The notes under the pieces: model-generated | Seen by the model: only the letters and a program-made list of their open reading frames with translations | The model's database searches: none | Told to the model about the DNA's origin: nothing | Made by a program: the position numbers and the translations under genes | Assembly: GCA_021741155.1 (NCBI GenBank) | Contig: JAIOYP010000018.1 | Span: 1 to 64,000 of the forward strand | Origin: Flavobacteriales bacterium | Lineage (GTDB): Bacteria; Bacteroidota; Bacteroidia; UBA10329 | Direction of reading: 5' to 3' | DNA: 64,000 nt | Shown: in pieces, positions 6,287-46,898 of the stretch | How the letters are laid out: each line of letters opens with the position of its first letter | Position numbering within the stretch: the first letter of the stretch is position 1

Positions 6287-6291
6287 GCTGC

Positions 6292-8123: not shown

Positions 8124-8196
8124 AACAATGAGTGAAACGGAAATCCGTTCAAATGGAAATCGTCAATGAGATTATTAACGATATGACCAAGGAAGA

Positions 8197-8291: not shown

Positions 8292-8344
8292 TTTATCGAC
8301 AGACTTATAAACTTTATCAACTTTGTGAACTATAAACTCAACAC

Positions 8345-8896: not shown

Positions 8897-9873
8897 CCCC
8901 AGTTTTTGAGGAGTTCGCGGGCTGCTGCAAACGGACTCACCTTCCCGTTTTTCACGTCTTCGGTCAATTTATCCAAGCTGTTTTTGGTGGATGGTTCTGA
9001 ATAGAATCGTTGATTCAATTCTTCGTTGATGGCCTGTTTTAGCCAAAATCCATTCTGATTGGCGCGTTGCACTTCTAGAAATCCACTCACACGAACGTGG
9101 TTGAAATAGCTTTCTGTTGAATTTAAAATTTCCTCAATTCCGTTTCCGCTCAGCGATGAACAAGAAATCACGGGAACAGTCCAGCCACTTTCCTTGGCAG
9201 GAAACATGTGTAAGGCTTGATGATAGGTCGCTTTTGCCAGTTTCGTGTAGCTCGCATTTTCGCCATCATCCTTATTGATAATGACCAAATCGGCCATTTC
9301 CATGATGCCGCGCTTGATGCCCTGCAACTCATCGCCAGCAGTAGCCAAAACCAGCAGAACGAACATATCCACCATGGAATGAACCGCAGTTTCGCTCTGC
9401 CCCACTCCAACCGTTTCAATCAGAATGGTGTCAAAACCTGCCGCTTCGCACAGCGTGATGGTTTCGCGGGTTTTACGCGCTACGCCACCCAACGAACCAC
9501 TTGATGGCGTTGGACGGATAAAGGCATTCGGGTCGGCAGAAAGTTTTTCCATTCGGGTCTTATCGCCCAAAATACTTCCGTGAGAAATGCCACTGCTTGG
9601 GTCGACCGCCAGCACGGCCACCTTCCTGCCCGATTCCGTCAACTTTGAACCAAAAGCATCAATAAACGTGCTTTTCCCAACTCCTGGAACACCAGTAATG
9701 CCAATGCGTTTGCTTTCAATGGCGTGAGGTGCGCATGCTTCCAGCAATTGAGCTCCTTTTAGCTGCTGTTCCTCGCGCGTGCTTTCAACTAGCGTGATGG
9801 CTTTTCCAAGTGCTACACGATTTCCATCAAGCACTCCTTTTGCTAATTCCTGAATAGAAATGGGACGCAACAT
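8884..9873 (-). CDS. meaB: MeaB/ArgK-type G3E GTPase chaperone of a B12-dependent mutase
   Basis: MeaB gates cofactor loading and protects B12-dependent acyl-CoA mutases through GTP hydrolysis. The 329-residue protein has Walker A at about 61-69 (GVPGVGKST), the switch regions (AVDPSSGISHGSILGDKTRM, RPTPSSGSLGG), the ETVGVGQSE block and a NKDD base-specificity motif, ending in the C-terminal dimerisation arm. Its usual partner is methylmalonyl-CoA mutase, which is not in this window. The IcmF at 39-42 kb already carries its own fused GTPase, so a separate mutase elsewhere is likely. It stands alone here, convergent with the preceding gene. Confidence 0.95.
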   Translation of the reverse strand: MLRPISIQELAKGVLDGNRVALGKAITLVESTREEQQLKGAQLLEACAPHAIESKRIGITGVPGVGKSTFIDAFGSKLTESGRKVAVLAVDPSSGISHGSILGDKTRMEKLSADPNAFIRPTPSSGSLGGVARKTRETITLCEAAGFDTILIETVGVGQSETAVHSMVDMFVLLVLATAGDELQGIKRGIMEMADLVIINKDDGENASYTKLAKATYHQALHMFPAKESGWTVPVISCSSLSGNGIEEILNSTESYFNHVRVSGFLEVQRANQNGFWLKQAINEELNQRFYSEPSTKNSLDKLTEDVKNGKVSPFAAARELLKNWGYKS

Positions 9874-9910
9874 GCTGCTAAATTATCAACTTAGCATCAG
9901 TTCAATACGA

Positions 9911-10939
9911 TTAAGCAGGAATCTGTTGACTGAGGCAATGTAGTGTTCCAAAACCCCAAATAAGATCTGTTGCCGCAATGCCAATGATATCTCTTCCAGG
10001 AAAACAGTCGGCAATGATATTAAGTGCCATGCGATCGTTGCTGTCATTAAAAGTTGGCACAAGCACGCATTTATTCAAAATCAAGAAGTTGGCGTAGCTG
10101 GCAGGAAGACTCAAGTCTTCGAATACAATCTGCTTTGGCATTGGCAAGGTCACCACATTAGGCGCTTTTCCGTTTTCAAGCACTGCGTTTTGCAATCGTT
10201 CATAATTGTCTTGAAGTGCTTTGTAATTCGGGCTCTTTTTATCCGTTTCTACGACTGTGATAATGGTATTCTCATTTACAAACCGACAAAGGTCATCGAT
10301 GTGTCCATGTGTATCATCACCTATAATGCCATCTCCAAGCCAAATGGTGTTCGTAATGCCTAGATGTTCCTTAAAAATGGCTTCATAATCTGCCTTAGAG
10401 AACCCTTTATTGCGAACCTGAATACTTGGATGCAGCAAACATTCCTCGGATGTAAGCAGCGTGCCTTTTCCATTCACATCCATGGCGCCTCCTTCTAGCA
10501 CAACAGACTTGTTCTTATAAGTAACGGAAGTCAGCGGGACATTCAAAAAATCGGCAACCTTCTGAGGTACCCCTTTATCTAATTGGTAGTTTTTGTACTT
10601 GGCCCAACCGTTAAAATGGAAGTCAAGAGCCTCTCTTTTCGAACCGTTTTGCACGATGATTGGACCCGAATCGCGCATCCAGCTTCTATTAGTACGATGA
10701 ACGATAAAGAAAACTTTCTTAAGCTCAACATGAGCCATCGTCAACATTTCGGTCACGCGGATTTTCAATGTTTCATTGGCCACAACCAAATACACGTCCT
10801 CGTAACACGAAACTTTCTTTATGAACTCTACAAAAGCCCATTTAATGGCTTCGTACTTACCTGGCCAATCGTTGCCGTTGTGAGGAAAACAAAGCAAGAT
10901 GCCGCTTTGATTCTCCCATTCCGCAGGAAATCTTCTCAT
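9911..10939 (-). CDS. aguA: Agmatine deiminase
   Basis: This enzyme hydrolyses agmatine to N-carbamoylputrescine and ammonia, the first step of the arginine decarboxylase route to putrescine. The 342-residue protein carries the pentein-fold signatures: FPAEWENQSGILLCFPHN at the start, WMRDSGP, the EGGAMDVNGKGT block, GDDTHGHIDDLCRF with catalytic His, and the nucleophilic Cys335 near the C terminus in GTLHCLSQQ. Its ATG overlaps the stop of aguB by four bases (ATGA), so the two are translationally coupled and act in sequence. Confidence 0.94.
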   Translation of the reverse strand: MRRFPAEWENQSGILLCFPHNGNDWPGKYEAIKWAFVEFIKKVSCYEDVYLVVANETLKIRVTEMLTMAHVELKKVFFIVHRTNRSWMRDSGPIIVQNGSKREALDFHFNGWAKYKNYQLDKGVPQKVADFLNVPLTSVTYKNKSVVLEGGAMDVNGKGTLLTSEECLLHPSIQVRNKGFSKADYEAIFKEHLGITNTIWLGDGIIGDDTHGHIDDLCRFVNENTIITVVETDKKSPNYKALQDNYERLQNAVLENGKAPNVVTLPMPKQIVFEDLSLPASYANFLILNKCVLVPTFNDSNDRMALNIIADCFPGRDIIGIAATDLIWGFGTLHCLSQQIPA

Positions 10940-11820
10940 TTATCAATCGCCCTTTTGGTAATATCTCCAAAGGCATCAATTCTTCTATCTCTGAAAAATG
11001 GCCAGTTCTGTCGGACACTTTCCTGAAGATCGAGGTCGACATCCGCCATAATTACTTCTTCTTTATCATGCGAAGCCATGGCAAGAATTTCGCCTTGTGG
11101 ACCTGCAATAAACGAAGCTCCCCAAAACTCAATTCCATCTGTATCTGGAATGTATTGCTCGAGCCCAATTCTATTTGCGGCAGCTACAAATACACCATTC
11201 GCCACGGCATGGCCTTTCATCACGTTCATCCACGCACCATATTGCTTGTCTCCGTATTCTGCCTTCTCGGCAGGATGCCAACCAATAGCCGTTGGATAGA
11301 ACAAAACCTCTGCTCCTTGGAGAGCCGTTAATCGTGCTGCTTCGGGATACCATTGATCCCAACAAATGAGCGTGCCAATGTTGCCCTTTTTAGTAGGAAC
11401 GTTCTTAAATCCAAGATCACCTGGTGTGAAATAGAACTTCTCGTAGAAATGAGGATCGTCTGGAATATGCATTTTTCGATACAAACCTGCCTCCGTTCCA
11501 TCTGTATCAATGATATAAGCGCTGTTGTGATAAATACCCGCCATCCTTCGTTCGAAAAACGGAACGATAATGACCACGCCTAATTCTTTGGCCAACTTGC
11601 TAAAAGCAATAAATGACGTGCTGTAAAGTGGTTCTGCTAAGGCAAAATTCTCTGTATCCTCGCTTTGGCAGAAATAATGACTGCTATAAAGCTCAGGAAG
11701 GCAGATTACTTCAGCTCCCTGAGAAGCAGACTTACGCACCCAACTTTCACATTTCTTAAGATTGTTGACGGCATTATCATTAAGGTTTAATTGAACGACC
11801 GCAATCTTGTATTTACTCAT
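10936..11820 (-). CDS. aguB: N-carbamoylputrescine amidase (nitrilase superfamily)
   Basis: It converts N-carbamoylputrescine to putrescine, CO2 and ammonia, completing the step begun by aguA. The 294-residue protein has the nitrilase Glu-Lys-Cys triad: Glu43 (CLPELYSS), Lys116 (YRKMHIPDD) and Cys153 (LICWDQWYPE). The motifs NRIG and FWGASFIAGPQGE are also typical of the plant-like AguB branch. It is the first gene of the two-gene leftward operon and overlaps aguA by four bases. An arginase-fold enzyme at 34.5 kb may provide a parallel ureohydrolase activity. Confidence 0.94.
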   Translation of the reverse strand: MSKYKIAVVQLNLNDNAVNNLKKCESWVRKSASQGAEVICLPELYSSHYFCQSEDTENFALAEPLYSTSFIAFSKLAKELGVVIIVPFFERRMAGIYHNSAYIIDTDGTEAGLYRKMHIPDDPHFYEKFYFTPGDLGFKNVPTKKGNIGTLICWDQWYPEAARLTALQGAEVLFYPTAIGWHPAEKAEYGDKQYGAWMNVMKGHAVANGVFVAAANRIGLEQYIPDTDGIEFWGASFIAGPQGEILAMASHDKEEVIMADVDLDLQESVRQNWPFFRDRRIDAFGDITKRAIDK

Positions 11821-11956
11821 ATTCGTTATTCATTTGTGAGGGGCTAAAAATAGTAGTTCTAGGATGGAAGCACATCAATTGATTATAGTTGGTTTATGGA
11901 ATTCAACCAAAAACTCACAAACAAAATAGCTGGTTACATAATCAATTAAAATATTT

Positions 11957-11972
11957 ATCGTAATATTGCGAT
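11957..11972. promoter_or_regulatory. Probable ArsR operator 1
   Basis: ATCGTAATATTGCGAT is a near-perfect inverted repeat four bases ahead of the arsR ATG. The same left half and core recur at 12325-12340 ahead of the next gene. Two matching dyads in front of an ArsR regulator and its neighbour fit autoregulation. Confidence 0.65.
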
Positions 11973-11976
11973 TGAA

Positions 11977-12306
11977 ATGGGATTAAGTAAAACACATCAG
12001 TTTACTGAAGAGCAGAATTCGCTTGCGGAAATGGCCAAAGCATTGGCGCATCCTGCACGAATAGCCATTCTTCAATACCTGAGCACCCAGAAAAACTGTG
12101 TATGCGGAAGTATTGTCAGCGAGGTTGGATTGGCTCAAGCTACAGTTTCACAACACCTAAAAGCCTTGAAGGAAGCTGGATTTATTGACGGAACGGTTGA
12201 AGGCGCGAGTGTTTGCTATTGTTTGAATACAACCAAACTGTCATCTGTTAAAGGGAAATTGAATTTCCTTTTAGATAACTGCTGCACTACTTCCTCCTGT
12301 TGTTAA
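11977..12306 (+). CDS. arsR: ArsR/SmtB-family metalloregulator
   Basis: A 109-residue winged-helix repressor that would release DNA on binding arsenite or a similar metal. The recognition helix region is QATVSQHLKALKEAGFI. A Cys pair at 41 and 43 (KNCVCGSI) sits where classical ArsR proteins carry the CVC arsenite site. More cysteines occur at 80 and 82, and the protein ends in a tail with Cys102, 103, 108 and 109 (NCCTTSSCC). Operator-like dyads lie ahead of this gene and the next. The ligand is inferred from the downstream arsenate-reductase-like gene; other thiophilic metals are possible. Confidence 0.9.
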   Translation: MGLSKTHQFTEEQNSLAEMAKALAHPARIAILQYLSTQKNCVCGSIVSEVGLAQATVSQHLKALKEAGFIDGTVEGASVCYCLNTTKLSSVKGKLNFLLDNCCTTSSCC

Positions 12307-12324
12307 AAAAATTTGAAATCAATC

Positions 12325-12340
12325 ATCGTAATATTACAAT
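12325..12340. promoter_or_regulatory. Probable ArsR operator 2
   Basis: ATCGTAATATTACAAT shares its first eleven bases with operator 1 and keeps most of the dyad. It lies between arsR and the DUF6428 gene, suggesting that gene has its own ArsR-controlled promoter. Confidence 0.6.
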
Positions 12341-12358
12341 CACTCAAATAATTAAATC

Positions 12359-12823
12359 ATGAAATTATCAGAAGTAAAACAAGCCTTGACAGGAATGAGC
12401 GAATTGACTTTCCGCTTAGAAGATGGAACCCAAGTTCCAGCGCATTTCCATGTAACGGAAGTAGGAAGCGTGAAGCGCCATTTTATCGACTGTGGCGGAA
12501 CGGTTCGAAAAGACGAGGCGGTAAACTTCCAACTTTGGTCGGCAAATGACCACGACCACCGATTGGCGGCCACCAAATTATTGAACATCATTCTTCTATC
12601 AGAAGAGAAACTGGGGCTAAACGATACCAATGTGGAAGTAGAATATCAAACCTCCACCATTGGAACTTACGGTCTTGAATTTGACGGCAAAGCCTTCGTT
12701 TTGACCAACACAAAAACCGAATGTTTGGCGATGGATGCGTGCGGCATTCCGCCAGCAAAGGAGAAAGTCGCTTTGGGAAAAGCCCAAGAATCGTGCTGCG
12801 CACCAGGAGGCGGATGTTGCTAG
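12359..12823 (+). CDS. DUF6428-like protein with cysteine tail
   Basis: A 154-residue soluble protein resembling the DUF6428 family found in Bacteroidota arsenic clusters; the assignment is by recall of this gene order. Visible features are FRLEDGTQVPAHFHVTEVG, an HFIDCGG segment, and a C-terminal tail with four cysteines (ESCCAPGGGCC). The tail echoes that of ArsR and suggests thiol capture of a metal(loid), which is an inference. An ArsR-type operator precedes the gene and a strong hairpin terminator follows it. Confidence 0.75.
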   Translation: MKLSEVKQALTGMSELTFRLEDGTQVPAHFHVTEVGSVKRHFIDCGGTVRKDEAVNFQLWSANDHDHRLAATKLLNIILLSEEKLGLNDTNVEVEYQTSTIGTYGLEFDGKAFVLTNTKTECLAMDACGIPPAKEKVALGKAQESCCAPGGGCC

Positions 12824-12830
12824 ACTGACT

Positions 12831-12875
12831 ACAACGCTTTGACCCGCTTTCAATAAGTGGGTCAAAGTGTTGTTC
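12831..12875 (+). terminator. Hairpin terminator after the arsR-DUF6428 genes
   Basis: ACAACGCTTTGACCC pairs with GGGTCAAAGTGTTGT with one mismatch, giving a long stem, followed by TCTTTG. It probably ends the arsR transcript before the phosphatase-fusion gene at 12897. Confidence 0.6.
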
Positions 12876-12896
12876 TTTGCAGCCAGCTTTTTCTGA

Positions 12897-14069
12897 ATGA
12901 CCGAAATCCTCCTTTCCTATCTCGCTTACAACATTATTGTAGGCCTCGTTCTTACTATCATTCATTTGGTAAAAACCAACGGGAAGATGCAGCCACAAAA
13001 CATTGCTTGGCTAATTCTTTTCCCTGCCATTGGACTAGGCAAATGGATTTACAGCCGAAATTCTGAATCAGGCGAGCCAATTCTATTTCCTGAAAAGTGG
13101 TTCATCTATAACTATATGATTAAGGTGAATTGGGGCTATTTGGCAATCATTGCGGCAGCACCAGTTTTATTTATGGCACTGATGTTTTTTGGCGTTGCCG
13201 TAGGAGGCATCTTCGATATGAGTTCAAATAACTTCGATTCCTATTCGGGAATGGGCGACTTGCTCGAAGCTGGCATTGTGATGCTTTTGCTGTTCGGCTC
13301 CATCATTATGGTATTTCTTCTTGCCATTCCTTACTTAATACTTATTCATTTACCCAAAACTCAGATGCGGACGATTGAGCGTCAACAGCTGTTTTCTCAA
13401 CAAAAAAGCCACATGGAATCTTCTCCTAAACCAGCCCAGCCATCACTAAAACCTATTTCCTTGCTGCGCGATATTCACATTTATGTTCTGAGTTTAGTCT
13501 CGGAATTCAAGACGATTCCGTCAGCACGCAGAAAGGAATTGGACGAAGTTTCGACTTACATCAAAGACAAAATTGCCAAGGGAGAAACGGTCAACCTCAT
13601 CTTCATTTGCACGCACAATTCGCGAAGAAGTCAGTTTGGGCAAGTTTGGGCGGCTACGGCTGCTGCCTATTATGGCGTTCGAAATGTGAACACTTTTTCG
13701 GGTGGAACGGAAGAAACTGCCTTTAACAAACGGGCCGTGGATGCCATCAAACGTGTTGGGTTTAAAGTGGATGGAACGGTAAGCACAAACCCACGCTATT
13801 CTGTTCGTTTTTCTGATGAAACGGGCGCATTGGATTGCTTTTCAAAAACGTTTGATCACTCGGCCAATCCGCAAAAAGGTTTTGCTGCCATCATGACCTG
13901 TTCGGATGCTGATGAGAACTGTCCGATTGTTCTTGGCGCTGAGTTCCGAGCACGAATCACCTACGAAGACCCGAAAATTTCCGACTTAACGGAAGCGGAA
14001 ACAGCAACCTATGACGAACGCTGCGCGCAAATTGCAACCGAAATGCTGTATCTGTTTAGTAAGGTCTAG
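12897..14069 (+). CDS. Membrane domain fused to arsenate-reductase-like low-molecular-weight phosphatase
   Basis: The C-terminal 200 residues match the LMW protein-tyrosine-phosphatase-like arsenate reductases found beside arsR and DUF6428 in Bacteroidota. The P-loop is CTHNSRRS (Cys238 to Arg244, CX5R), and a cysteine pair follows at 335 and 342 (MTCSDADENCP). These proteins would reduce arsenate to arsenite. Unusually, about 175 residues precede the enzyme, with hydrophobic segments near 8-25, 36-50, 79-105 and 125-150 (for example VMLLLFGSIIMVFLLAIPYL). The frame is continuous from 12897. An internal ATG at 13413 (MESSPKPAQ) could yield the soluble enzyme alone. A copy of the 3' end recurs at 15437. 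Confidence 0.8.
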   Translation: MTEILLSYLAYNIIVGLVLTIIHLVKTNGKMQPQNIAWLILFPAIGLGKWIYSRNSESGEPILFPEKWFIYNYMIKVNWGYLAIIAAAPVLFMALMFFGVAVGGIFDMSSNNFDSYSGMGDLLEAGIVMLLLFGSIIMVFLLAIPYLILIHLPKTQMRTIERQQLFSQQKSHMESSPKPAQPSLKPISLLRDIHIYVLSLVSEFKTIPSARRKELDEVSTYIKDKIAKGETVNLIFICTHNSRRSQFGQVWAATAAAYYGVRNVNTFSGGTEETAFNKRAVDAIKRVGFKVDGTVSTNPRYSVRFSDETGALDCFSKTFDHSANPQKGFAAIMTCSDADENCPIVLGAEFRARITYEDPKISDLTEAETATYDERCAQIATEMLYLFSKV

Positions 14070-14213
14070 CTGATGGTAAGAATAATGAAGAGTACTTGCA
14101 TTACTCCGTATTCAAACTATATGCACCTAATCATCAACCACTTAAATGCAAAAAAAATGGCCTATTGCGTACATTTACAGGTCATCGGTAATGAAAACAA
14201 AAGCATTTGAATC

Positions 14214-15434
14214 ATGAAAAATCTACTTGTATTTCTTCTGTTAGCAGTTCTCATTGCAGGGTGTAAGAAAAACGATAGCGATTATATCCCTAATGGTCTG
14301 GTTACTATTAAAGGTAGCACTTCAGAAAACAAGAAAAGCATCAATTCCCTATCAGAAGCGACAAAAGTTCTTGTCTTAAAAATTCATATTGGATCTATTA
14401 CTCCAAGCTTTGTTGATATTATAGATGGCGCATTCTCCTATACTACCGAATCTGGAGTTGTTACAGCCTTGGTATTTTTAGATGTAAACAATCAATATCT
14501 AGGCACTCTTTCTCCTCAGGGATTAAATCTTCTTCCTCTTTTAAATTTAGCCGATGGCGATAATGCGATTATCGACTTAGAGACGCTTACGCTAGACGGA
14601 AACAGCATTCTACCTTCACATGATCCTTTAGGAAACGATATAATCATTAGCAATGAAGAAGTAAACAGCCTAAAAGAATTGGACGGATTTTTCGAAAGCT
14701 TGGCTAAAAATATTGATGCAGATAATGATAGTATTTTAGACCTCATCAATCATAAACAACTATATATCACAAATCGGTTCACCATGGGATTAGGCGGCAA
14801 ATATGGGTTAAACAATACTGCCCCAATTATGAATGAAATTGGAATCAATAATATAGGTTATAGCCTAGAAGTAAGAGGCGATTTAGGCTTTGGTGTTCCA
14901 AATAGCCTTGTGTTTTCGGGACCTAACGACAATCCCTATCAGAATATAACGACTCAGTTTATTAATCCGAATGGAAATGGTGGTTTTTACTCTGTAGTTT
15001 ACAGACAAGAAAACGGTACAAGGCTACCATTTACAACAGGAACCTATACATTACTAATTGACAATAATCCTTATTCACTCGCATACTCAACAATTAACCC
15101 TACAAATAGCTTGATAGTGGTTGTTCCCACGCTCATTACAAATAGCGAAGGGAAACTTACCGCAATATCTCTGGAATATAAATTACCCGATGGCAGCTCA
15201 ATAGATCCAACAAGCATATTATCAGATGTTATGGTACAATTCAATGATGCATCTGCAAACCAGTTTTATGATACACCAAGATTGGTTAACACTGAAATAG
15301 AAAATTGCGATTGCGTTGTGGGTCTGTATTCCTATACACTTGATACACCCGTAGACATCTCAGCATTAGAGAGTGTATATGTTGGCTACAATGATTTTTT
15401 AGGAAATTCGTACGCAATCAGCTGGTATGAATAG
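14214..15434 (+). CDS. Hypothetical lipoprotein, likely imported cargo
   Basis: A 406-residue lipoprotein with signal peptide and lipobox (LLAVLIAGC, Cys17) followed by KKNDSD. The N-terminal 60 or so mature residues (LVTIKGSTSENKKSINSLSE, then VLVLKIHIG) look like a carboxypeptidase-regulatory or Ig-like beta domain. A DADNDSILDLIN stretch resembles a calcium-binding loop. No family is recognised for the rest. The gene is visibly more AT-rich than its neighbours. It is bracketed by the 3' end of the phosphatase gene and a diverged copy of that end, so it probably arrived by recombination. Confidence 0.7.
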   Translation: MKNLLVFLLLAVLIAGCKKNDSDYIPNGLVTIKGSTSENKKSINSLSEATKVLVLKIHIGSITPSFVDIIDGAFSYTTESGVVTALVFLDVNNQYLGTLSPQGLNLLPLLNLADGDNAIIDLETLTLDGNSILPSHDPLGNDIIISNEEVNSLKELDGFFESLAKNIDADNDSILDLINHKQLYITNRFTMGLGGKYGLNNTAPIMNEIGINNIGYSLEVRGDLGFGVPNSLVFSGPNDNPYQNITTQFINPNGNGGFYSVVYRQENGTRLPFTTGTYTLLIDNNPYSLAYSTINPTNSLIVVVPTLITNSEGKLTAISLEYKLPDGSSIDPTSILSDVMVQFNDASANQFYDTPRLVNTEIENCDCVVGLYSYTLDTPVDISALESVYVGYNDFLGNSYAISWYE

Positions 15435-15436: not shown

Positions 15437-15510
15437 GCTGAAACAGCAATCTATGACGAAGCTGTGCACAGATTCCAACCGAAATGCTGTATCTGTTCAG
15501 TAAGGTGTGA
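15437..15510 (+). pseudogene. Diverged duplicate of the phosphatase 3' end
   Basis: These 74 bases match 13995-14069, the last 25 codons of the fusion gene, with one base deleted after GACGAA. After restoring that base it reads DERCAQIPTEMLYLFSKV and a stop. Most differences from the original are synonymous (TGC/TGT, GCG/GCA, CAA/CAG, TTT/TTC, GTC/GTG), and the stop is TGA rather than TAG. No start or upstream part is present, so it is a remnant. Confidence 0.85.
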
Positions 15511-38145: not shown

Positions 38146-39042
38146 ATGCAACGCGCCTACCTTCAAATGCATTTTGCCATTTTCCTTTGGGGATTTACGG
38201 GCATACTTGGCAAGCTTATTACGCTCCAGGAATATCCACTTGTTTGGTGGCGTATACTCATCACTGTCACGGCATTAGGTGCTTTTCTTAAATGGAAAGG
38301 CGAACTAGAACCACCGCCATGGAAAGAGATGAAAAAGATTGCTTTTGTAGGCGCCATGATTGCCCTGCATTGGGTTACCTTTTATGGTTCTATCAAGTAC
38401 TCGAATGTGTCTATTGCGCTAAGTGCATTGGCAAGTACCGCGCTGTTTACGGCCATTCTCGACCCCATCCTCAATAGTAAGAAACCAAAAGCCGCAGAAC
38501 TCATTCTCGGTCTGTTTACCATCTGTGGTATTTACCTCATTTTTCGTTTTCAGCAATTGTATGCCGTGGGTATTTCATTAGGGCTGATAAGCGCCATGCT
38601 TTGTGCCTATTTCACCATTCAGACCAAAGGACTGTTGGAAAACCACGGTCCACGTAACTTGCTCTTCTACGAACTCATTGGTGGCTTGGGAACGCTCACC
38701 GTTTTGGCCCCGCTTTACCTCTACCTCTTCCCTGCTCCAACGCTTATTCCGTCAATATCTGATAGCGGTTATCTGCTCATTATGAGCATCGTCTGCACCG
38801 TTTATGCCATGCAGCTTTCCTATCAGGCGCTCAAGCACGTTTCGCCCTTTGTCATGAACCTTTCGGTGAACTTAGAACCCATCTATTCTATCATCCTCGC
38901 TGCCATTATTTTTCATGAGCACGAAGACTTGAACCTTGGGTTTTATGCTGGTGCTGGGGTTATTATTTTGTCTGTTGCCGCCAATGGCATTCTTCATCTT
39001 AATGATAAGCGCAAGGCGCGAAAACAGATGGTGATGCCTTAA
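38146..39042 (+). CDS. EamA-domain drug/metabolite transporter family permease
   Basis: A 298-residue inner-membrane protein with ten predicted helices in two EamA repeats. The first begins QMHFAIFLWGFTGILGKLIT with the WR pair in EYPLVWWRILI; the second ends FHEHEDLNLGFYAGAGVIIL. The family exports amino acids, nucleotides or other metabolites; the substrate cannot be told. The ATG at 38146 is preferred to a TTG at 38137, which sits in a promoter-like ACATTTG. Confidence 0.88.
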   Translation: MQRAYLQMHFAIFLWGFTGILGKLITLQEYPLVWWRILITVTALGAFLKWKGELEPPPWKEMKKIAFVGAMIALHWVTFYGSIKYSNVSIALSALASTALFTAILDPILNSKKPKAAELILGLFTICGIYLIFRFQQLYAVGISLGLISAMLCAYFTIQTKGLLENHGPRNLLFYELIGGLGTLTVLAPLYLYLFPAPTLIPSISDSGYLLIMSIVCTVYAMQLSYQALKHVSPFVMNLSVNLEPIYSIILAAIIFHEHEDLNLGFYAGAGVIILSVAANGILHLNDKRKARKQMVMP

Positions 39043-39174
39043 TCTAGGAAAATGATGGTCAACAAAGCAGTCCTAAAGCAAATCGAACAGGCTCTTTTTT
39101 AAACTCTTTCAAGTCATTTCAAGCAAGACACTGCCACGGCCTAAATCGTAAATTCGCGGAATAAGAGTTAGAAG

Positions 39175-42100
39175 ATGCAGGAAGTAGCGCCATACAAACC
39201 GAAGAATAAGATCAGAATTGTGACTGCGGCCAGTCTGTTTGATGGGCATGATGCGGCCATCAATATCATGCGCAGGATTATCCAAGCCACGGGCGTTGAG
39301 GTGATTCATTTGGGACACGACCGCAGCGTGGAAGAAGTGGTGAACTGCGCCATTCAGGAGGATGCGCAGGCCATTGCCATGACGAGTTATCAGGGTGGAC
39401 ACAACGAGTATTTTAAGTACATGTTCGACCTTTTGCAGGAGAAAGGCGCTCCGCAAATAAAGATCTTTGGTGGTGGTGGCGGAACGATTCTTCCTTCCGA
39501 AATGGAGGAACTGCACGGCTACGGAATTACCCGCATTTATGGTCCTGACGATGGTCGTGAGATGGGTTTGCAGGGCATGATCAATAACATGATTGAGCAG
39601 TGCGATTTCCCAACGGGGATGGAATTGAGCGGTGAAGAAGGAAGATTGGAAAAGCAGAATTGGACCGATATCGCGAAGTTGATTTCGGCTGCGGAAAACA
39701 ATCCTGAAGGAAGCAAAGACGCATTCAAAACGGTTAAGGCAGCAGCTGAGAAATCCACCACGCCTGTTCTAGGAATTACTGGAACCGGTGGCGCAGGAAA
39801 ATCATCAATGGTGGATGAATTGGTGCGCAGGTTTTTGGTTGATTTCCCTGAAAAGAACATTGCGATTGTTTCGGTAGACCCATCAAAACGGAAAACAGGC
39901 GGTGCGCTTTTGGGTGATCGTATTCGCATGAATTCTATTCGAAATGAGCGTGTTTACATGCGTTCGTTGGCTACGCGCCAGAGTAATTTGGCGTTGAGCA
40001 AGCACGTGCAAGAGGCAGTTGATATTCTGAAAGCAGCGCATTACGACCTTATTATTCTAGAAACTTCTGGTATCGGACAAAGCGACACGGAGATTACCGA
40101 TCACAGCGATGTTTCGTTATACGTCATGACGCCTGAGTTTGGTGCCGCCACGCAATTGGAGAAGATTGACATGCTCGATTTTGCCGATGTGGTTGCCATC
40201 AACAAGTTTGACAAGCGCGGTGCGTTGGATGCTATTCGGGATGTGAAAAAGCAGTACAAGCGCAACCGCCAGTTGTGGGATATGAAAGACGAGGACGTTC
40301 CTGTTTACGGAACCATTGCCAGTCAGTTCAACGACCCAGGCACCAACTCGCTTTACAAGGCGATTATGGATGAAATTGTAGCCAAAACGAAGGCAGATTT
40401 AAACTCCACATTCGAGATAACGGATGAGATGAGCGAGAAGATCTACGTCATTCCACCGAACAGAACACGTTACTTATCTGAGATTGCGGAGAACAACCGT
40501 GGGTATGATAAATGGGCAAACGAACAGGCAGAAGTTGCAGATAAACTTTACGCCATTCACCGCACGATAGAAACGGTTTCGGAGGCTGATTTGAAGAAGG
40601 TTCTTCAGGCGGAATTTGATAAAGTGAAGTTGGATTTGGATCCGCGTAACTGGCTCATTATTGAAGGTTGGCCCGAACAAGCGCAACGTTACAAGGATGA
40701 GTTCTACATCTTTCAAGTTCGGAACAAGGAGATTAAGATTAAGACACATTCTGAGTCGTTGTCGCATTTGCAAATACCGAAAGTTGCCACTCCGAAATAC
40801 AGGAATTGGGGCGACCTATTGAGATGGATTTTACAGGAAAACGTGCCGGGAGAATTTCCTTACACGGCTGGTATTTATCCGTTTAAACGCGAAGGCGAAG
40901 ACCCTGCGCGGATGTTTGCAGGAGAAGGCGGCCCCGAACGAACCAACACACGTTTTCACTACGTTTCAAGCGGATTGCCAGCGAAGCGTTTGAGCACAGC
41001 TTTCGATAGCGTGACGCTCTACGGAAACGACCCCGGCCATCGCCCTGACATCTACGGAAAAGTAGGCAATTCAGGTGTAAGCATCTGCTGCTTGGATGAT
41101 GCCAAGAAGCTCTATTCTGGTTTCGATTTGACCAATCCGCTAACATCGGTTTCGATGACCATCAACGGACCAGCACCGATGTTGCTCGGTTTCTTTATGA
41201 ATGCCTGCATCGATCAGGAATGTGAAAAGTATATCCAAGCTAATGGCTTGGAAAGTGAAGTGGAAAAAAAGAAAAAGGAAAAATGGGATAAGCAAGGACT
41301 AAAACGTCCTGAATATCAAGGAGAGCTTCCCGAAGGAAACAACGGATTGGGTCTGCTCCTACTCGGCCTCACAGGTGATGAGGTACTTCCTGCTGATGTG
41401 TATGCCAAGATTAAAGTGGATGCATTAAGCAAGGTGCGTGGCACCGTTCAGGCGGATATTCTGAAGGAAGACCAAGCACAGAACACGTGTATTTTCAGTA
41501 CGGAATTCGCGCTGCGGTTGATGGGCGATGTGCAGCAGTATTTCATTGATCAGAACGTCCGGAATTTCTACTCGGTTTCTATCTCAGGTTACCACATTGC
41601 GGAAGCTGGCGCGAACCCGATTTCGCAATTGGCTTTTACGCTTGCCAATGGGTTCACATTCGTAGAGTATTACCTGAGCCGTGGAATGGATGTGAACGAA
41701 TTCGGGCCAAATCTGAGCTTCTTCTTTAGCAACGGCATTGACCCAGAATATGCTGTAATCGGTCGCGTGGCACGAAGAATCTGGGCCAAGGCCATGAAGC
41801 AGAAATATGGTGCTGATCCACGCGCGCAAATGCTCAAGTATCACATTCAGACGAGCGGTAGAAGTTTGCATGCGCAGGAGATTGATTTCAACGACATCCG
41901 AACTTCGTTGCAAGCACTTTACGCCATCTACGACAACTGCAATTCGTTGCACACCAACGCCTATGACGAGGCCATTACCACGCCTACCGAGGAAAGCGTG
42001 CGCAGGGCGATGGCTATTCAGCTTATCATCAACAAGGAACTTGGTCTGGCCAAGAACGAGAATCCGATTCAAGGTGCGTTCATTATTGAAGAGCTGACCG

Positions 42101-42537
42101 ACCTTGTAGAAGAAGCGGTGCTGATGGAATTTGACCGATTAACCGAGCGCGGTGGCGTGCTGGGCGCGATGGAAACGATGTACCAGCGCAGCAAGATTCA
42201 AGAGGAAAGTCTGTACTACGAAACGCTGAAACACACTGGCGAATTCCCAATTATTGGGGTGAACACGTTCCTAAGTAGCAAAGGTTCGCCAACCATTCTT
42301 CCAAAAGAAGTTATTCGTGCTACGGAAGAGGAAAAGCAGTATCAGATTACCATGCTGGAGAACCTCCACAAGGCCAAAGCCGACCAGACCAAAACCTCGC
42401 TCAAAAAGCTACAGCAAGCCGCCATTCAAAATGACAATATGTTTGAGGAAATGATGGAAGCTGCCAAGCACTACTCGCTCGGACAGATTACCAACGCGCT
42501 GTTTGAGGTTGGAGGACAATACCGAAGAAATATGTAA
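39175..42537 (+). CDS. icmF: Fused isobutyryl-CoA mutase (IcmF), B12-dependent
   Basis: IcmF interconverts isobutyryl-CoA and butyryl-CoA using adenosylcobalamin. The 1120-residue protein has the fused order: B12-binding domain at about 12-145 ([14 protein letters not shown] with Asp23/His25, then GGGGTI); G-protein chaperone domain from about 195 ([12 protein letters not shown] at 200-211, [27 protein letters not shown]); and the mutase barrel from about 560 ([42 protein letters not shown]). Substrate is assigned by architecture; related fused mutases act on other acyl-CoAs. No riboswitch was seen upstream. Two diverged copies of its 3' end lie downstream. Confidence 0.93.
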
Positions 42538-42553
42538 TCTTATTGTCCGACAA

Positions 42554-42573
42554 CCCTGAGCACAGTCGAAGGG
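42554..42573. repeat. CCCTGAGCACAGTCGAAGGG dispersed-type repeat
   Basis: A 20-base imperfect inverted repeat of a kind commonly scattered between genes in bacterial genomes. Only this copy was noticed in the window. It lies between icmF and the first copy of its 3' end. Confidence 0.45.
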
Positions 42574-42578
42574 TTTGT

Positions 42579-42602
42579 GGGCAGTATCGGAGGAATATGT
42601 AG
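42579..42602 (+). pseudogene. Short diverged copy of the icmF 3' end (copy 1)
   Basis: These 24 bases read GQYRRNM and a stop, identical in protein to the end of icmF, but nearly every codon differs synonymously (GGG CAG TAT CGG AGG against GGA CAA TAC CGA AGA) and the stop is TAG instead of TAA. The codons are closer to those of copy 2 at 43159-43248. Confidence 0.75.
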
Positions 42603-42634
42603 TAAGGGTTTGATGTATCAAACCCTTATCTTTG
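42603..42634 (+). promoter_or_regulatory. Operator palindrome overlapping promoter of toxin-antitoxin pair 1
   Basis: TAAGGGTTTGAT and ATCAAACCCTTA are perfect 12-base arms around GT (42603-42628). The right arm overlaps a TATCTTTG -7 box at 42627-42634. The start of the antitoxin gene is 17 bases further on. This is the layout expected for autorepression by an antitoxin or toxin-antitoxin complex. Confidence 0.65.
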
Positions 42635-42651
42635 GATAAAGCAGATTAGTT

Positions 42652-42885
42652 ATGGCAACGGTAAAACTTCGTGTGAGTGATAAGATTTTGGGGAAAGTCT
42701 TAAGAATTCTTGATCAGTTTGATGCTGATGAATTGGAAGTAATTGAAGAGGACGAGGCGTTTTTGCAAACAAGAAAAATGTTGCATGAACGTGCTGCCCA
42801 GCTTGAGAAAGGAGAGGTTAAGACCTATTCAATCGAGGAAGTTGATGCAATCTTAGAAGAGACCATTCGCAAGTATGAAGGTTGA
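42652..42885 (+). CDS. Type II antitoxin of a RelE/ParE-like pair
   Basis: A 77-residue acidic protein. The N-terminal strand and helix (MATVKLRVSDKILGKVLRIL) may form a small dimerisation or DNA-binding unit, and the C-terminal part (YSIEEVDAILEETIRKYEG) is the usual toxin-wrapping helix of ParD/RelB-type antitoxins. It overlaps the downstream toxin gene by 11 bases and is preceded by an operator-like palindrome. The exact family is not recognised; the role rests on size, overlap and partner. Confidence 0.75.
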   Translation: MATVKLRVSDKILGKVLRILDQFDADELEVIEEDEAFLQTRKMLHERAAQLEKGEVKTYSIEEVDAILEETIRKYEG

Positions 42886-43159
42886 GTTACTCGCCCCGTT
42901 CAAGGATGACCTTAAGGACCAAACTGATTTTATAGCCCGAGATAAACCTCAGGCAGCAAGAAAATTCAAGGTTAACATTCTTAAGCAGATTTCGAAACTT
43001 GATGATAATCCCTATTCCAATAGGCGTTCGATATATTATGATGACGACTGCTACCGCGACTTGGTTTTCAAAGGATACAAAGTGATATTCAAAATCGATA
43101 ACCCCAAGAACACCGTTTTTGTGATCGGATTGGTGAACATGCAAAAGGGAATAAAATGA
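42875..43159 (+). CDS. RelE/ParE superfamily toxin
   Basis: A 94-residue basic protein with the RelE/ParE pattern: an N-terminal strand and two helices (KDDLKDQTDFIARDKPQAARKF), the ISKLDDNPYSNRRSIYYDDD segment, and closing strands with YRDLVFKGYKVIFKIDN and VFVIGLVNM. It would act either as a ribosome-dependent RNase (RelE) or gyrase inhibitor (ParE); the YKVIFKID form fits either. It overlaps its antitoxin gene. The stop TGA merges into copy 2 of the icmF 3' end. Confidence 0.85.
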   Translation: MKVELLAPFKDDLKDQTDFIARDKPQAARKFKVNILKQISKLDDNPYSNRRSIYYDDDCYRDLVFKGYKVIFKIDNPKNTVFVIGLVNMQKGIK

Positions 43160-43248
43160 AAATGATGGAAGCCGCCAAGCATTGCTTGCTCGGACAGATT
43201 ACCAACGCGCTGTTTGAGGTGGGTGGGCAGTATAGGAGGAATACGTGA
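43159..43248 (+). pseudogene. Diverged 30-codon copy of the icmF 3' end (copy 2)
   Basis: It matches icmF 42448-42537 at about 85% of bases without gaps. It reads [20 protein letters not shown] then GGQYRRNT and a TGA stop, against [20 protein letters not shown] and GGQYRRNM in icmF. Most changes are synonymous, so it derives from a functional homologue rather than from decay of a local duplicate. It has no start and follows directly on the toxin gene stop. Confidence 0.9.
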
Positions 43249-43326
43249 TTGGAATGAATACGACCAATTCCTATCCATGCCTAGGCAAAGGTTTCCTTAT
43301 CAACATTTCAGGAGTGGAAAAACATT

Positions 43327-43334
43327 TAGCTTTG
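43327..43334 (+). promoter_or_regulatory. -7 promoter box (TAGCTTTG) of toxin-antitoxin pair 2
   Basis: An exact TANNTTTG match 18 bases before the ATG at 43353. A TTTC at 43306-43309 (17-base spacer) is a weak -33 candidate. Confidence 0.5.
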
Positions 43335-43352
43335 TAAAGCGGACTAAAAGCA

Positions 43353-44039
43353 ATGAAAGCAAATACACATAACAAACCTCTTATTGGTGGCGGCATTTAC
43401 ACACTTCCAGACGTGGCCGATATTCTACAGATACCTTATCACAAGGTTAGTAGATGTGTAAAGGAATATTGGGATGCTAGACTTGCTTCGGATGTTGAAA
43501 ATCAATATTCTTGGACAAATGGTAAATCAAGAGCGGTAAGCTTTTACACGCTTATTGAGTTATTCGTTTACATCCAGCTGACAGATGCTGGGGTAAATAC
43601 GAAAGATGTACTCAAAGCTCATTTGGAGTTGTCAGAATTATACGACACTCCATACCCTTTCGCTACCCAAAACTTACTCGTTGGCATTAAATCTTACGGA
43701 AAGAAAATTTATTTCGAAAGAAGCGAAGGTGAGGTAATCGACTTAGACGGGACACGTCAATTTAACCTCACTTTCCTTTTGGATTTTGTAAAGAACATCG
43801 AATTTGACAATGATAAGTTGGCCACAAAACTTTGGCCGATTGGCAAAGACCACAGCATCGTTGTTGATCCAGAACATCAATTTGGTCAACCGACAATTGA
43901 AGGAACTAATATTCGACCATCCACCATCTACCAACTTCATCAGGGAGGAGAACCAGATAAATTTATTGCAATGTTGTATGAACTGAGTGAGGATCAGGTT
44001 AAACACTCCATTGAGTTCTGCACGAAAAAGGCAGCATGA
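43353..44039 (+). CDS. VapB45-like antitoxin with DUF433 domain
   Basis: A 228-residue protein. The N-terminal part (YTLPDVADILQIPYHKVSRC) is a MerR/HTH-like DNA-binding segment. The C-terminal 60 residues (VDPEHQFGQPTIEGTNIRPS, YELSEDQVKHSIEFCTKKAA) are a DUF433 domain. The Mycobacterium tuberculosis VapB45/VapC45 pair has the same order and similar sizes, recalled from knowledge rather than aligned here. It overlaps the PIN-like toxin gene by four bases. Confidence 0.8.
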   Translation: MKANTHNKPLIGGGIYTLPDVADILQIPYHKVSRCVKEYWDARLASDVENQYSWTNGKSRAVSFYTLIELFVYIQLTDAGVNTKDVLKAHLELSELYDTPYPFATQNLLVGIKSYGKKIYFERSEGEVIDLDGTRQFNLTFLLDFVKNIEFDNDKLATKLWPIGKDHSIVVDPEHQFGQPTIEGTNIRPSTIYQLHQGGEPDKFIAMLYELSEDQVKHSIEFCTKKAA

Positions 44040-44455
44040 CCAAGGTATACATTGATGAAAACATGCCTCACCAGCTTGCCGAGGCACTAAACATTCTCCA
44101 ACAGCCATTAAACTTCAAAGAACCATTACAGATTGAAGTTCTTTCCATCAAAAAAGTGTTTGGACAAGGTGCCAAAGACGAAGAGTGGATACCGCTTGTA
44201 GGTAAAGAGGGCGGTATAATTATTACACAGGATTACAACATCCAGACTACCCGTCATCAACGGGATCTTTGTGAAGAACATGGTTTGGGAATGCTTTACA
44301 TCAAACCTCCTTCTAAAAACGGACTTTCTTATTGGGAAATGGCTGAGTTTATTGTCACCCGTTGGGAGGAAATCAAAAAGATAATTTCGAAGAACAAGCC
44401 TCCTTTTGCTTTTCGCTCTACAATCAAAAGCAAGAAATTCGACAAGATTGATTGA
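44036..44455 (+). CDS. VapC45-like PIN-domain toxin (DUF5615-like)
   Basis: A 139-residue protein with the PIN-like/DUF5615 pattern: VYIDENMPHQLAEAL at the start with the first acidic residues (Asp6, Glu7), DEEWIPLVGKEGGIIITQDY with further acidic residues, and a basic C-terminal region (RSTIKSKKFDKID). Such toxins are presumed RNases. The start overlaps the antitoxin stop by four bases (ATGA), so the pair is coupled. Its end lies 49 bases before a 28-bp direct repeat. Confidence 0.82.
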   Translation: MTKVYIDENMPHQLAEALNILQQPLNFKEPLQIEVLSIKKVFGQGAKDEEWIPLVGKEGGIIITQDYNIQTTRHQRDLCEEHGLGMLYIKPPSKNGLSYWEMAEFIVTRWEEIKKIISKNKPPFAFRSTIKSKKFDKID

Positions 44456-44503
44456 TTTACTCATGCGCCTCTCCTCAGGCTTCTTCATCTACCACATCAT
44501 ACG

Positions 44504-44531
44504 GGCAAGTAGGAAATTTGCGAAGGTTTAG
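44504..44531 (+). repeat. 28-bp direct repeat, left copy
   Basis: GGCAAGTAGGAAATTTGCGA followed by AGGTTTAG. The right copy at 45202-45229 differs at one base (C to T). In the right copy the TAG inside the repeat is the stop codon of the gene at 44572. Confidence 0.8.
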
Positions 44532-44571
44532 ATATTGCTATTTCATACATTTCGCCACCGAAACCAACCTG

Positions 44572-45210
44572 ATGAAATATATACTTGTAATGTGCGCTTT
44601 ATTCTGCTATGCTTCCGCAGAAGCACAAATCCATCCATTTCAAACAGACAAAAAAGAGAGAAATTACTACACGAAATATGACGGCTCCGACTTTGTGGTG
44701 TTGAAAGACAGACCAGACACAATCTTCTCCAAAATTGTCAAAATGCAAATGGCGAGCAACGACCCTATTAAATTGGAATTTCAGATTGATGGAAGAGACA
44801 CTGTCATTAAAGGAACTGGTTGCCTGAATGCCATTGCATTTCAATCGGAAGAAGCAATAATGGAACTGATGCCTAAGAATCCTGAAAAACCACAAAAGGG
44901 AAGTCAACACATGTTCCGAAGTACAGAAGGATACATCACCATTTGGTCTAACCAACACAAGTTCAGTAAGAATTATGTGAAGCCTCAACCTACAGGTATG
45001 CGTCAAGAGGTAATACATAATGTCGAATACATGATTGTATCGGTAAATAATGGCCCGTTGTTCATACCAAGCATGAAAAACTACAAGAACCAGCTTTATC
45101 CGCTCTATAGGGATTGTGCTGGGATGGACAAAAGTGGGTTCAGTGATTTCTTTGCTGGTGTCATTCGCCTTAGCGAATCGTACAACGAGACGTGTGGACA
45201 AGGCAAGTAG
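44572..45210 (+). CDS. Hypothetical exported protein in the accessory island
   Basis: A 212-residue protein with a signal peptide (KYILVMCALFCYASAEAQ). The ATG at 44572 is preferred because the frame upstream crosses a direct repeat and gives no signal peptide. The mature part includes KYDGSDFVVLKDRPDTIFSK, a pattern of short secreted Bacteroidota proteins that track envelope state, and three cysteines. I recognise no family. The gene is framed by 28-bp direct repeats, which suggests acquisition or duplication as a unit. Confidence 0.65.
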   Translation: MKYILVMCALFCYASAEAQIHPFQTDKKERNYYTKYDGSDFVVLKDRPDTIFSKIVKMQMASNDPIKLEFQIDGRDTVIKGTGCLNAIAFQSEEAIMELMPKNPEKPQKGSQHMFRSTEGYITIWSNQHKFSKNYVKPQPTGMRQEVIHNVEYMIVSVNNGPLFIPSMKNYKNQLYPLYRDCAGMDKSGFSDFFAGVIRLSESYNETCGQGK

Positions 45211-45229
45211 GAAATTTGTGAAGGTTTAG
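45202..45229 (+). repeat. 28-bp direct repeat, right copy
   Basis: Differs from 44504-44531 at a single base. It spans the last codons and stop of the preceding gene and runs into a non-coding stretch. Confidence 0.8.
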
Positions 45230-45437
45230 GGGCATTGGCCACCCACGAACAGCCAATTTCAGACAGCACACGTTTGGTTTTGACGACCTCTTCTAAAGCC
45301 GTTCCTTTTCACTATCGGGCTTCCGTAGTAAAGGCATTTTTTAATAACCTTTGATTTAGCTCCAGCCTTACGCCTTTGAGGCTTTCAAAGGTTCACAGAC
45401 TCCTTTTTGCCCATTAGACCAGCAATTCTGTTGCTTA
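45230..45437. other. Non-coding stretch with hairpin potential
   Basis: No open frame of note is present. A nested inverted repeat lies near 45346-45395 (AACCTTTGA with TCAAAGGTT outside, CTTTGAGG with CTTTCAAAG inside). It may be the remains of a mobile element or an RNA structure. I could not assign it. Confidence 0.4.
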
Positions 45438-46898
45438 CTAATCGAATCGAAACCCCCTCTCTTCTAGCTTTGATTTGGCTGGCGCAACCAAAGTGAAATA
45501 TTCAGACCCAAATGTCCAAATAGTGGGATCATCCATTGGTATTGCTTGATTACAAGTGCCAATCAATCCGACCTTGTCAGGCTCGGTTCTCAATCCATTA
45601 TTCACCGCATCGATGTATGGATAATAGCGATCGTTATTTCCGTAATACCGAGCAATTAATCGTTCGTTAGAATAAAACATCAGCTGCCATTGTAGCAATG
45701 CTCCTTGAGAAAAAACGTATTTGACATTATTTGATTCCAATTGTCTGATGGCTCGATTCAGGTGAATGGTGCTGCCGTTTTCAAACCTATAATCCTTAAA
45801 ACTGATTAGCGCGTAGCAATTAGCCGCAATGAGAATGACGAGCAATGCGTTAACCACTTTTAGTTTCTCAAATTTTGAAAGCAACAGAGCCAACATCAGG
45901 AAAAAGTAGCCAGAAATTGGAAGCAAGTAGCGGGCGTGATAATCGGCTGTATAAATCGACACAGCAGCTGCAAACAAAACGGGAACAACCGAAACAAACA
46001 ACAGTTGATTGTTCCTTGTTTTTCGTGTTATCTGAAAGAAAAGTATAAGCGTTGAAACAAGTAAGCCTGTAGTCAGAATCCATGCGAAGATTGAAGTAAA
46101 TAAGCTCGGTTCGATGGCATCTCCCAAATAATAACTCCCTGAAAAATGGATTTGAAGATACTTGGGTAGCGCCATTAACTTTTCTGTTAGATTCTCAGGC
46201 ATGCTAAAAACGCTTGGTGCAAAAGAATCTACTCTTGTCGTGTCTAGAACTTTCAATAAGCCGAACATTCCAAATCCCATTGCACCTCCGAATAGTTGAG
46301 CACCAAGCAACTTGACAGAACGCATTTGAAACAATCGGAAAGTCGTAAAAACAAGCATCTCAGGAAGCCATAATGCTTGGCATTCAAATATGGTTGCTAG
46401 CGTTAACCCAAAAAAAGCATGATATAAAAGAGATGTTTCAGAACGTTTGCTGAAAAGCAGATATGTGAAAAGTGGAAACAGGAAGAAAGCAGAAATGTAT
46501 CCGCCTCGAGCCTTCATGGACCACACTGCCCAGGCCGGAGTGGTGGTCAATAATAAGGTTATCAACAAAGGAATCCATTTATTTCCGCTCGGGAAGTGTT
46601 TAAGTGTGGCGTAAAACAAACACACACCACCAGAAAACAGGAGTAGCATGGTGAGTTTTACAGCCATGGCAGAAACTCCAAAAAGCAGAAACACAAGGCT
46701 AATCGGAAGCACTTCCAAGAACGAAAAACCGTAACTCTGACCGTAGAAATAGAACGGTAATTCCTTGCCTTCGGAAAAGTGTTTGGCCATCAAACCTACA
46801 ATGGCCTCGTCCCCATCAAGAAGTAAGTTTGGACTGAGCAGTTGCGGCAGCCTCGAAAGAATACAAACGATGAGAATAAAGACCAGCTCTTTTCTCAT
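45438..46898 (-). CDS. GT-C type membrane glycosyltransferase (ArnT/PMT-like)
   Basis: A 486-residue integral membrane protein with about 11-12 helices. The first periplasmic loop holds LLLDGDEAIVGLMAKHF, with the Asp-Asp/Glu pattern typical of GT-C enzymes that use polyprenyl-phosphate sugar donors. The loop SMKARGGYISAFFLFPLFTY and a soluble C-terminal part of about 100 residues follow the usual plan. Donor and acceptor are unknown. It is isolated from the polysaccharide genes at 52-60 kb. A mazG remnant lies directly upstream. Confidence 0.75.
   Translation of the reverse strand: MRKELVFILIVCILSRLPQLLSPNLLLDGDEAIVGLMAKHFSEGKELPFYFYGQSYGFSFLEVLPISLVFLLFGVSAMAVKLTMLLLFSGGVCLFYATLKHFPSGNKWIPLLITLLLTTTPAWAVWSMKARGGYISAFFLFPLFTYLLFSKRSETSLLYHAFFGLTLATIFECQALWLPEMLVFTTFRLFQMRSVKLLGAQLFGGAMGFGMFGLLKVLDTTRVDSFAPSVFSMPENLTEKLMALPKYLQIHFSGSYYLGDAIEPSLFTSIFAWILTTGLLVSTLILFFQITRKTRNNQLLFVSVVPVLFAAAVSIYTADYHARYLLPISGYFFLMLALLLSKFEKLKVVNALLVILIAANCYALISFKDYRFENGSTIHLNRAIRQLESNNVKYVFSQGALLQWQLMFYSNERLIARYYGNNDRYYPYIDAVNNGLRTEPDKVGLIGTCNQAIPMDDPTIWTFGSEYFTLVAPAKSKLEERGFRFD

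Follow-up and report, generated by a model that had tools for sequence, protein, structure and literature searches.

Displaced icmF 3′ ends beside putative toxin-antitoxin genes point to a recurrent landing site for captured genes in Bacteroidota

Related ways of gene gain or displacement have been described in several bacterial systems. Among the type VI secretion system (T6SS) effectors of Vibrio cholerae, a new module enters behind a conserved upstream anchor and the old 3′ part is shifted downstream, with repeats of the process building arrays; homology-facilitated illegitimate recombination was proposed for this displacement, and in one case the shifted part is an effector 3′ end (Kirchberger et al. 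2017, PMC5361080). Rhs loci carry stacked truncated fragments of varying length downstream of an intact gene, and every fragment is the mark of one insertion (Jackson et al. 2009, PMC2935791), and restriction-modification (R-M) genes have been found inserted with long, variable target duplications (Nobusato et al. 2000, as described in PMC3031569 and PMC1643837). Hotspots without recognisable mobile elements, the flanking core genes of which recombine more, have been explained by a model of double recombination, with exchange in the core gene on either side (Oliveira et al. 2017, PMC5635113). Here we describe repeated 3′ ends of icmF, the gene for a fused isobutyryl-CoA mutase/GTPase, beside two putative toxin-antitoxin (TA) pairs in a 64,000-nucleotide stretch of a Flavobacteriales bacterium (GenBank assembly GCA_021741155.1, contig JAIOYP010000018.1, positions 1 to 64,000, forward strand), the whole of which is called the window.

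The icmF locus resembles each of these systems in part. With T6SS sequential displacement it shares the conserved anchor, the old 3′ part moved downstream and the arrays; however, the T6SS module replaces an effector or effector domain and orphan immunity genes are retained, whereas here the anchor is a metabolic gene with a conserved protein end and the cargo consists of unrelated genes after the stop codon. Stacks of truncated fragments downstream of an intact gene recall Rhs tip displacement, but the Rhs fragments have a nearly identical core and differing tips, while the displaced icmF piece is a diverged allele and the cargo lies outside the gene; icmF, with its conserved protein end, has no exchangeable variable C-terminal tip of the Rhs type. 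Inserted genes flanked by long direct target repeats are the feature shared with R-M target duplication, the closest system in cargo, although at icmF the target copies differ as alleles do and are stacked several deep, and a large part of the cargo is other than R-M. The locus is also like the Oliveira hotspots in being a variable spot without recognisable mobile elements, but what its displaced tails record is the addition of genes at a single flank. In logic, displacement of T6SS effectors and of Rhs tips comes nearest, but the anchor at icmF is a conserved housekeeping gene. A limited literature search, too small to call the observation unpublished, met neither icmF nor other housekeeping gene ends as such sites.

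Copies of the icmF 3′ end in the window and its genus

We conclude that the icmF 3′ end is probably a recurrent landing site at which each capture shifts the old end downstream. The incoming DNA would carry an icmF end together with cargo and recombine by homology inside the 3′ part of the resident icmF, the right joint possibly being formed by illegitimate recombination or via a circle. The former end would be pushed to the right of the new cargo, which would then be followed, not preceded, by a displaced tail, and repeated captures would stack truncated icmF ends downstream as an ordered record of acquisition. In the window, the tail named copy 2 would be the one resident before the first TA pair (TA1) came, and copy 1 the end that came in with TA1 and was displaced in its turn, with TA1 followed by copy 2 and the second pair (TA2) by the tail of another gene, Z; we infer this order from a different genus, g9. 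Numbers with G and L denote sampled genomes and loci, G000 being the genome of the window. The locus reads icmF, palindrome, copy 1, palindrome, TA1, copy 2, TA2, Z tail, X, short Z tail, as follows:

39175..42537, plus strand: icmF (fused isobutyryl-CoA mutase/GTPase), active copy (NCBIfam NF045497 IcmF, 1777.7 bits; Pfam MM_CoA_mutase, MeaB, B12-binding)
42451..42537, plus strand: active icmF tail, 28 codons and stop
42554..42573, no strand: CCCTGAGCACAGTCGAAGGG palindrome, between the active icmF tail and copy 1
42579..42602, plus strand: copy 1, displaced icmF tail, 7 codons and stop TAG
42603..42628, no strand: dispersed palindrome with 12-bp perfect arms, directly 3′ of the copy 1 stop
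42652..42885, plus strand: presumed antitoxin of TA1, 77 aa, weakly RelB-like below the cut-off and without a Pfam match
42875..43159, plus strand: putative toxin of TA1, ParE/RelE family (PF05016 ParE_toxin, E 6e-11)
43160..43249, plus strand: copy 2, displaced icmF tail, 28 codons and stop
43353..44039, plus strand: gene 1 of TA2, C-terminal DUF433 (PF04255)
44036..44455, plus strand: gene 2 of TA2, PIN-like (PIN_10, PF18478)
44454..44531, plus strand: 3′ tail of gene Z (not icmF), after TA2; 86% to G004, 84% to G008
44572..45210, plus strand: gene X, common to G004, where it lies downstream of Z
45202..45229, plus strand: another displaced Z tail (28 nt, 96%), which overlaps the stop of X

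A sequence-only reading of the window had reported two TA pairs, each preceded by a synonymously diverged copy of the icmF 3′ end, and the repeats proved real. Copy 2 forms a gap-free direct repeat with the active end (42449-42538 and 43160-43249, 84% over 90 nt) and is the second-best match of the icmF end in its own genome (E 7e-22 for DNA, 3.5e-19 for a 32-residue tail profile). It reads in frame from an ATG at 43162, and 13 of 29 codons (14 bases) differ from icmF, 10 synonymously (stop included) and 3 non-synonymously, leaving the protein nearly unchanged as had been stated. The comparison of synonymous divergence that had been proposed as a check gave a crude NG86 dS of 1.05 and dN of 0.05, very noisy over 28 codons. 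Copy 1 (GGG CAG TAT CGG AGG AAT ATG TAG) is short but in register with icmF, and its codons are indeed copy 2-like, with GGG/CAG/TAT/AGG common to both copies where icmF has GGA/CAA/TAC/AGA. Alone it is weak genome-wide (E 0.43 with the same profile); it starts 42 nt past the icmF stop, where a chance match has a probability of about 1e-4 (E scaled to 1 kb). Both TA pairs are putative, assigned by protein family only, and the RelB-like match of the TA1 antitoxin fell below the cut-off. The Z tail after TA2 and its 28-nt recurrence had escaped the sequence-only reading.

At the 14 bases separating the active tail from copy 2, six of seven relatives (three of the genus and three from other families) match copy 2 more often, the exception being G004; G002 was excluded from this count for an indel in its tail, which by BLAST is 86% identical to copy 2 and 79% to the active tail. 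Copy 2 thus appears nearer to the relatives than the active tail is, as expected for an old resident end, although with 14 informative bases this is suggestive only.

Of the other eight genomes in the genus, five yielded a single DNA match to the icmF tail and the remaining three had no match. The region downstream of icmF was read in G001, G002, G004, G006 and G007, and different genes occupy the site in these five. TA1, TA2 or a second icmF tail was present downstream of icmF in none of the five. Across the eight genomes, the TA1 toxin was matched only in G007, by a split, weaker match. In G004 intact Z comes directly after icmF, and beyond it are a palindrome and one more Z tail, which differs synonymously; in G007 a Z tail follows cargo of another kind, a gene that is HARE-HTH-like but under the Pfam cut-off; we read this as Z having been reduced to its tail at least twice. 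The icmF of G004 is like that of G002 (94-98%) just before the last 50 nt and like that of G000 (96%) within them, a pattern that points to exchange of the very end of icmF, with a reservation over the G002 indel. The last 13 sense codons of G004 icmF are identical to those of the active G000 tail. The Z tail was also considered as a dispersed repeat and rejected, strong matches occurring only at the window locus or at a Z gene.

Dispersed palindromes adjoin displaced tails, with two types in the window and a CCCTTCGACAAGCTCAGGG type in three g9 genomes, where they lie (L101, L103, L104) just before fragments beginning at icmF residue 769. The type at 42554-42573 occurs at 8 places in the genome of the window, including the window site, and sequences similar to 42603-42628 occur at 12 other places in it (17 match rows, 12 distinct places). 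Palindromic GGGGCGTA...TACGCCCC segments stand directly 3′ of gene ends at L040 (G004, between Z and the second Z tail) and L043 (G002, after icmF). No Rfam family or tRNA that might serve as a landing site was found within 39000-46500.

Order and direction of events in genus g9

An icmF tail match was found in 32 of 45 genomes of g9. At least two tails, at E ≤ 2e-5 each, were present in 21 of the 32, some with the tails on different contigs. The loci of eleven genomes were read, chosen mostly because several tails were present, and stacked icmF fragments were found in ten (G158, G187, G096, G286, G128, G060, G263, G348, G403 and G418), leaving G213 as the sole genome without them.

The direction of displacement is read from G187, where an active icmF is followed by three genes, a fragment beginning at icmF residue 901, an efflux-like cluster, a fragment beginning at residue 773, a 249-aa open reading frame (ORF) and a 25-residue tail. 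From this tail onward the DNA is 92.8% identical to that of G286 from the end of its displaced fragment onward, and the remnants of former residents lie in age order: active end, residue-901 fragment, residue-773 fragment, and the oldest tail at the flank shared with G286. Positions 5125-13386 of G187 match the icmF end and cargo of G348 at 99.88% over 8262 nt, while the preceding 407 nt match at 91%. Full identity sets in about 175 nt short of the icmF stop, placing the identity switch, and with it a homologous joint, inside the anchor gene. The same icmF end sits in G348 in a frame open to the very start of the contig, which we take for the active gene. Because the last ~175 nt of the G187 fragment are nearly identical to this icmF end of G348 and identity switches inside icmF, the fragment is read as an old resident icmF end, and G348 as probably representing the state before the youngest capture.

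A block with such a switch is also seen between G286 and G348: the two are 100% identical from ~640 nt before the end of icmF to ~150 nt past it, whereas identity is 90-98% upstream of this block and 80-90% downstream. Among the active icmF genes of eight g9 genomes, mean identity is 95-97% in three 150-nt windows whose end lies 600 nt short of the stop, but only 80-81% in the two final windows (300 nt). Displaced fragments begin at icmF residues ~769, 773, 901, 966, 1090, 1092, 1096 and 1103. When displaced pieces from nine genomes other than that of the window were compared with the active icmF of the same genome, 513 codon differences were synonymous and 171 non-synonymous, against an expectation of 21-22% synonymous for random changes; the count takes in some frame-shifted and overlapping stretches. 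Alleles nearer to a displaced tail than its own active gene, for which a search had been proposed, do exist in g9, the G187 fragment being up to 92.8% identical to the active icmF of other genomes and 86.9% to its own. The C-terminal end of icmF is conserved as protein, cargo begins after the stop codon, and in the stacks, as in the window, cargo is flanked by direct repeats of the icmF tail.

Cargo, recurrence across the class and controls

The cargo varies from genome to genome. The products encoded between icmF and a displaced tail are a PD-(D/E)XK nuclease in G158, a protoglobin and a MarR regulator in G187, a nucleotidyltransferase with a HepT-like partner in G135, a methyltransferase in G285, a pYEATS protein in G031 (a contig-edge case), a 23S intervening-sequence protein at L160, DUF6000 and a PD-(D/E)XK nuclease family transposase protein at L218, and a secreted protein at L233. 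VapB/PIN is placed behind the first tail in G263. R-M genes come after the tails of G128 and G060 and, in G213, after icmF itself; the tails of G348 have a type I R-like gene beyond them. A large reverse-strand cluster, heavy-metal efflux-like by eye, is present in the stacks of G158, G187, G096, G286, G348 and G418.

Recurrence beyond the genus was surveyed with the 32-residue tail profile in 395 genomes of the class, an extra copy being counted at E ≤ 0.01. The icmF tail was matched in 329 of these, more than once in 15. Removal of three contig-edge cases (G183, G155, G031) and of G375, the extra copy of which has 11 residues (E 0.004), left 11 firm multi-tail genomes spread over four families. 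On the G031 contig of L068/L243, icmF and two genes are followed by a second tail at which the contig ends, and the contig of L069 begins with an identical 97-nt tail followed by different DNA; either one population may hold the site both occupied and empty, or the assembly may fork here.

Displaced icmF tails were found at 3 of 80 named loci (Hymenobacter terrenus, Flavobacterium pectinovorum and a Flavobacteriales metagenome-assembled genome (MAG)), two of them from named strains without a MAG label. Compared with other genes at the named loci, displaced tails occurred for 3 of 78 icmF genes versus 0 of 763 others (Fisher 8e-4), or for 2 of 78 icmF genes under identical criteria (Fisher 0.009), the L218 icmF tail failing the strict form. 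Among 841 genes searched for tails and 819 for heads at these loci, the non-icmF hits were five tails and one head, all dropped as full-length or nearly full-length paralogues. As a control in g9, the tail of a succinate-dehydrogenase-like gene, named by motif only, had no displaced copy in 36 genomes; a second full-length copy of this gene was present in one.

Tails and heads were also compared for 276 genes of G000 and 269 of G158. With criteria set after the table had been seen, by which paralogues in tandem, C-terminal domains present in repeats, and matches doubtful for their shortness or low identity (including L126, L133, L141 and L153) were dropped, three non-icmF tails (window 12897-14069, L122, L142) and one head (L118) were kept, too few for a conclusion. 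The last 15 codons of the 390-aa gene at 12897-14069 recur at 15463-15510, behind a 406-aa ORF (14214-15434), with 93% protein identity, five codons differing synonymously and one non-synonymously, and stop TAG versus TGA. At L122, in the same genome, a 557-aa protein that is ABC-F-like by eye (13221-14894, minus strand) has a displaced tail ~600 nt downstream in which the last 25 codons differ synonymously only. The first 14 residues of the L118 gene (16975-19104) are copied (93%) ~800 nt upstream, a mirror image of the tails.

A gene that is acetyl-CoA-synthetase-like by eye (L142, L244) has extra tails in 9 of 37 g9 genomes, nearly all in short frames; its tail was picked since G158 had shown a displaced copy of it. 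G417 carries four such extra tails, the first of them preceded by ORFs of 77 aa and 131 aa, the longer one PIN-like by eye.

Competing explanations and significance

Several results weigh against serial displacement at icmF. Copy 1 and the Z tail at the end of X are very short. TA1 was not found beside icmF in a donor, one 66% partial match being obtained from 395 genomes with two candidates scored in each. In the window genus no clear 3′ divergence cliff is seen in icmF, and in g9 identity falls in other parts of the gene as well as at its end, with means of 61% and 78% in windows 9 and 10 (counted from the end). The G348 pieces are on separate contigs and its "active" end is on a contig that begins inside icmF; many genomes are drafts, and the tails of G395, G409 and G423 are split, in whole or in part, between contigs. 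For icmF a 17-row profile was searched with, for the control a single sequence, with which very short tails could be missed. Finally, one L218 cargo gene belongs to the PD-(D/E)XK nuclease family transposase family, and ORFs that are transposase-like by eye lie beyond the last tail in G158.

Circular intermediates, in which cargo and an icmF tail form a circle and one homologous crossover in the tail produces tail-cargo-tail, with repeats from which the cargo can pop out again, would yield the same final topology, with cargo between direct tail repeats, and were put forward for Rhs tips (PMC2935791). We nevertheless regard this route as rather unlikely, given that a single crossover would duplicate a fixed tail stretch at both ends, whereas the fragment starts vary widely, and that phages, viral contigs and plasmids yielded no displaced tail: the 52-residue icmF end had no match in phages, 0 of 30 pattern hits in viral contigs were confirmed, and the six matching plasmid records were all below 60% identity. 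The direction proposed in the sequence-only reading, in which a donor icmF tail and its cargo were inserted together behind an intact native icmF and foreign tails precede cargo, accords with the diverged tail to the left of each TA pair and with G004, which matches the active tail better than copy 2. It is improbable in our judgement, as copy 2 is the better match for the other six relatives, the neighbouring genes and the 99.9% block in g9 make the displaced tail the resident one, and the Z tail at the right end of TA2 is left unexplained. That reading is supported in that the tails look like diverged functional alleles and in that the icmF 3′ end recurs as a landing site, with other cargo in relatives; its pairing of each tail with the TA genes that follow is, by the g9 order, probably reversed.

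Site-specific integrative elements typically restore the gene 3′ end on entry and leave direct repeats. An element with an att core in the icmF 3′ end, its integrase lost or acting in trans, would account for such features, but we hold this very improbable: a Pfam scan of 33 ORFs, from the neighbourhood and the cargo but with many of those in the large stacks outside it, found no integrase family, there is no fixed crossover, fragments starting anywhere from residue ~769 to 1103, and the tail showed no excess synonymous conservation in 30 genomes, the last 10 codons ranking 53 among 284 windows. A fixed att site is a poor fit because fragment starts vary and the tail DNA is without constraint. 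Nor did the scanned ORFs include an integrase of the kind that an integron cassette array would have. Tandem duplication of the icmF end in place with later decay, or retention of the tails for a local function such as transcription termination, could draw on the palindrome directly after copy 1; it hardly agrees, however, with differences that are mostly synonymous, and duplication is contradicted for the G187 fragment by its greater likeness to the active genes of other genomes, making this the least credible of the explanations, as had been argued for decay from the window alone. The varied fragment starts, the unconstrained tail DNA and the synonymous differences fit a recombination event that has its anchor in the end of the gene and displaces the former end.

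A broader reading, tentative and in our view slightly short of evenly balanced, is that several housekeeping 3′ ends in Bacteroidota (icmF, the acetyl-CoA-synthetase-like gene and others seen once) may be element-free docking points at which defence and TA genes accumulate by serial tail displacement, the tails forming an ordered record of capture, the tail-cargo-tail repeats making cargo re-mobilisable, and defence islands growing without mobile elements. If this is true, ordinary recombination could move tail-flanked cargo into any cell with the same gene. Many sites of frequent gene gain are without recognisable mobile elements; flank exchange moves existing genes and by itself leaves the first addition of a foreign gene unexplained; displaced tails would be the footprint of that additive step, giving the anchor gene, the break points, the order of capture and the earlier resident allele. 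Element-free capture would become countable from sequence and testable in the laboratory, and the presence of toxin-antitoxin and restriction genes beside a B12-dependent mutase would be explained.
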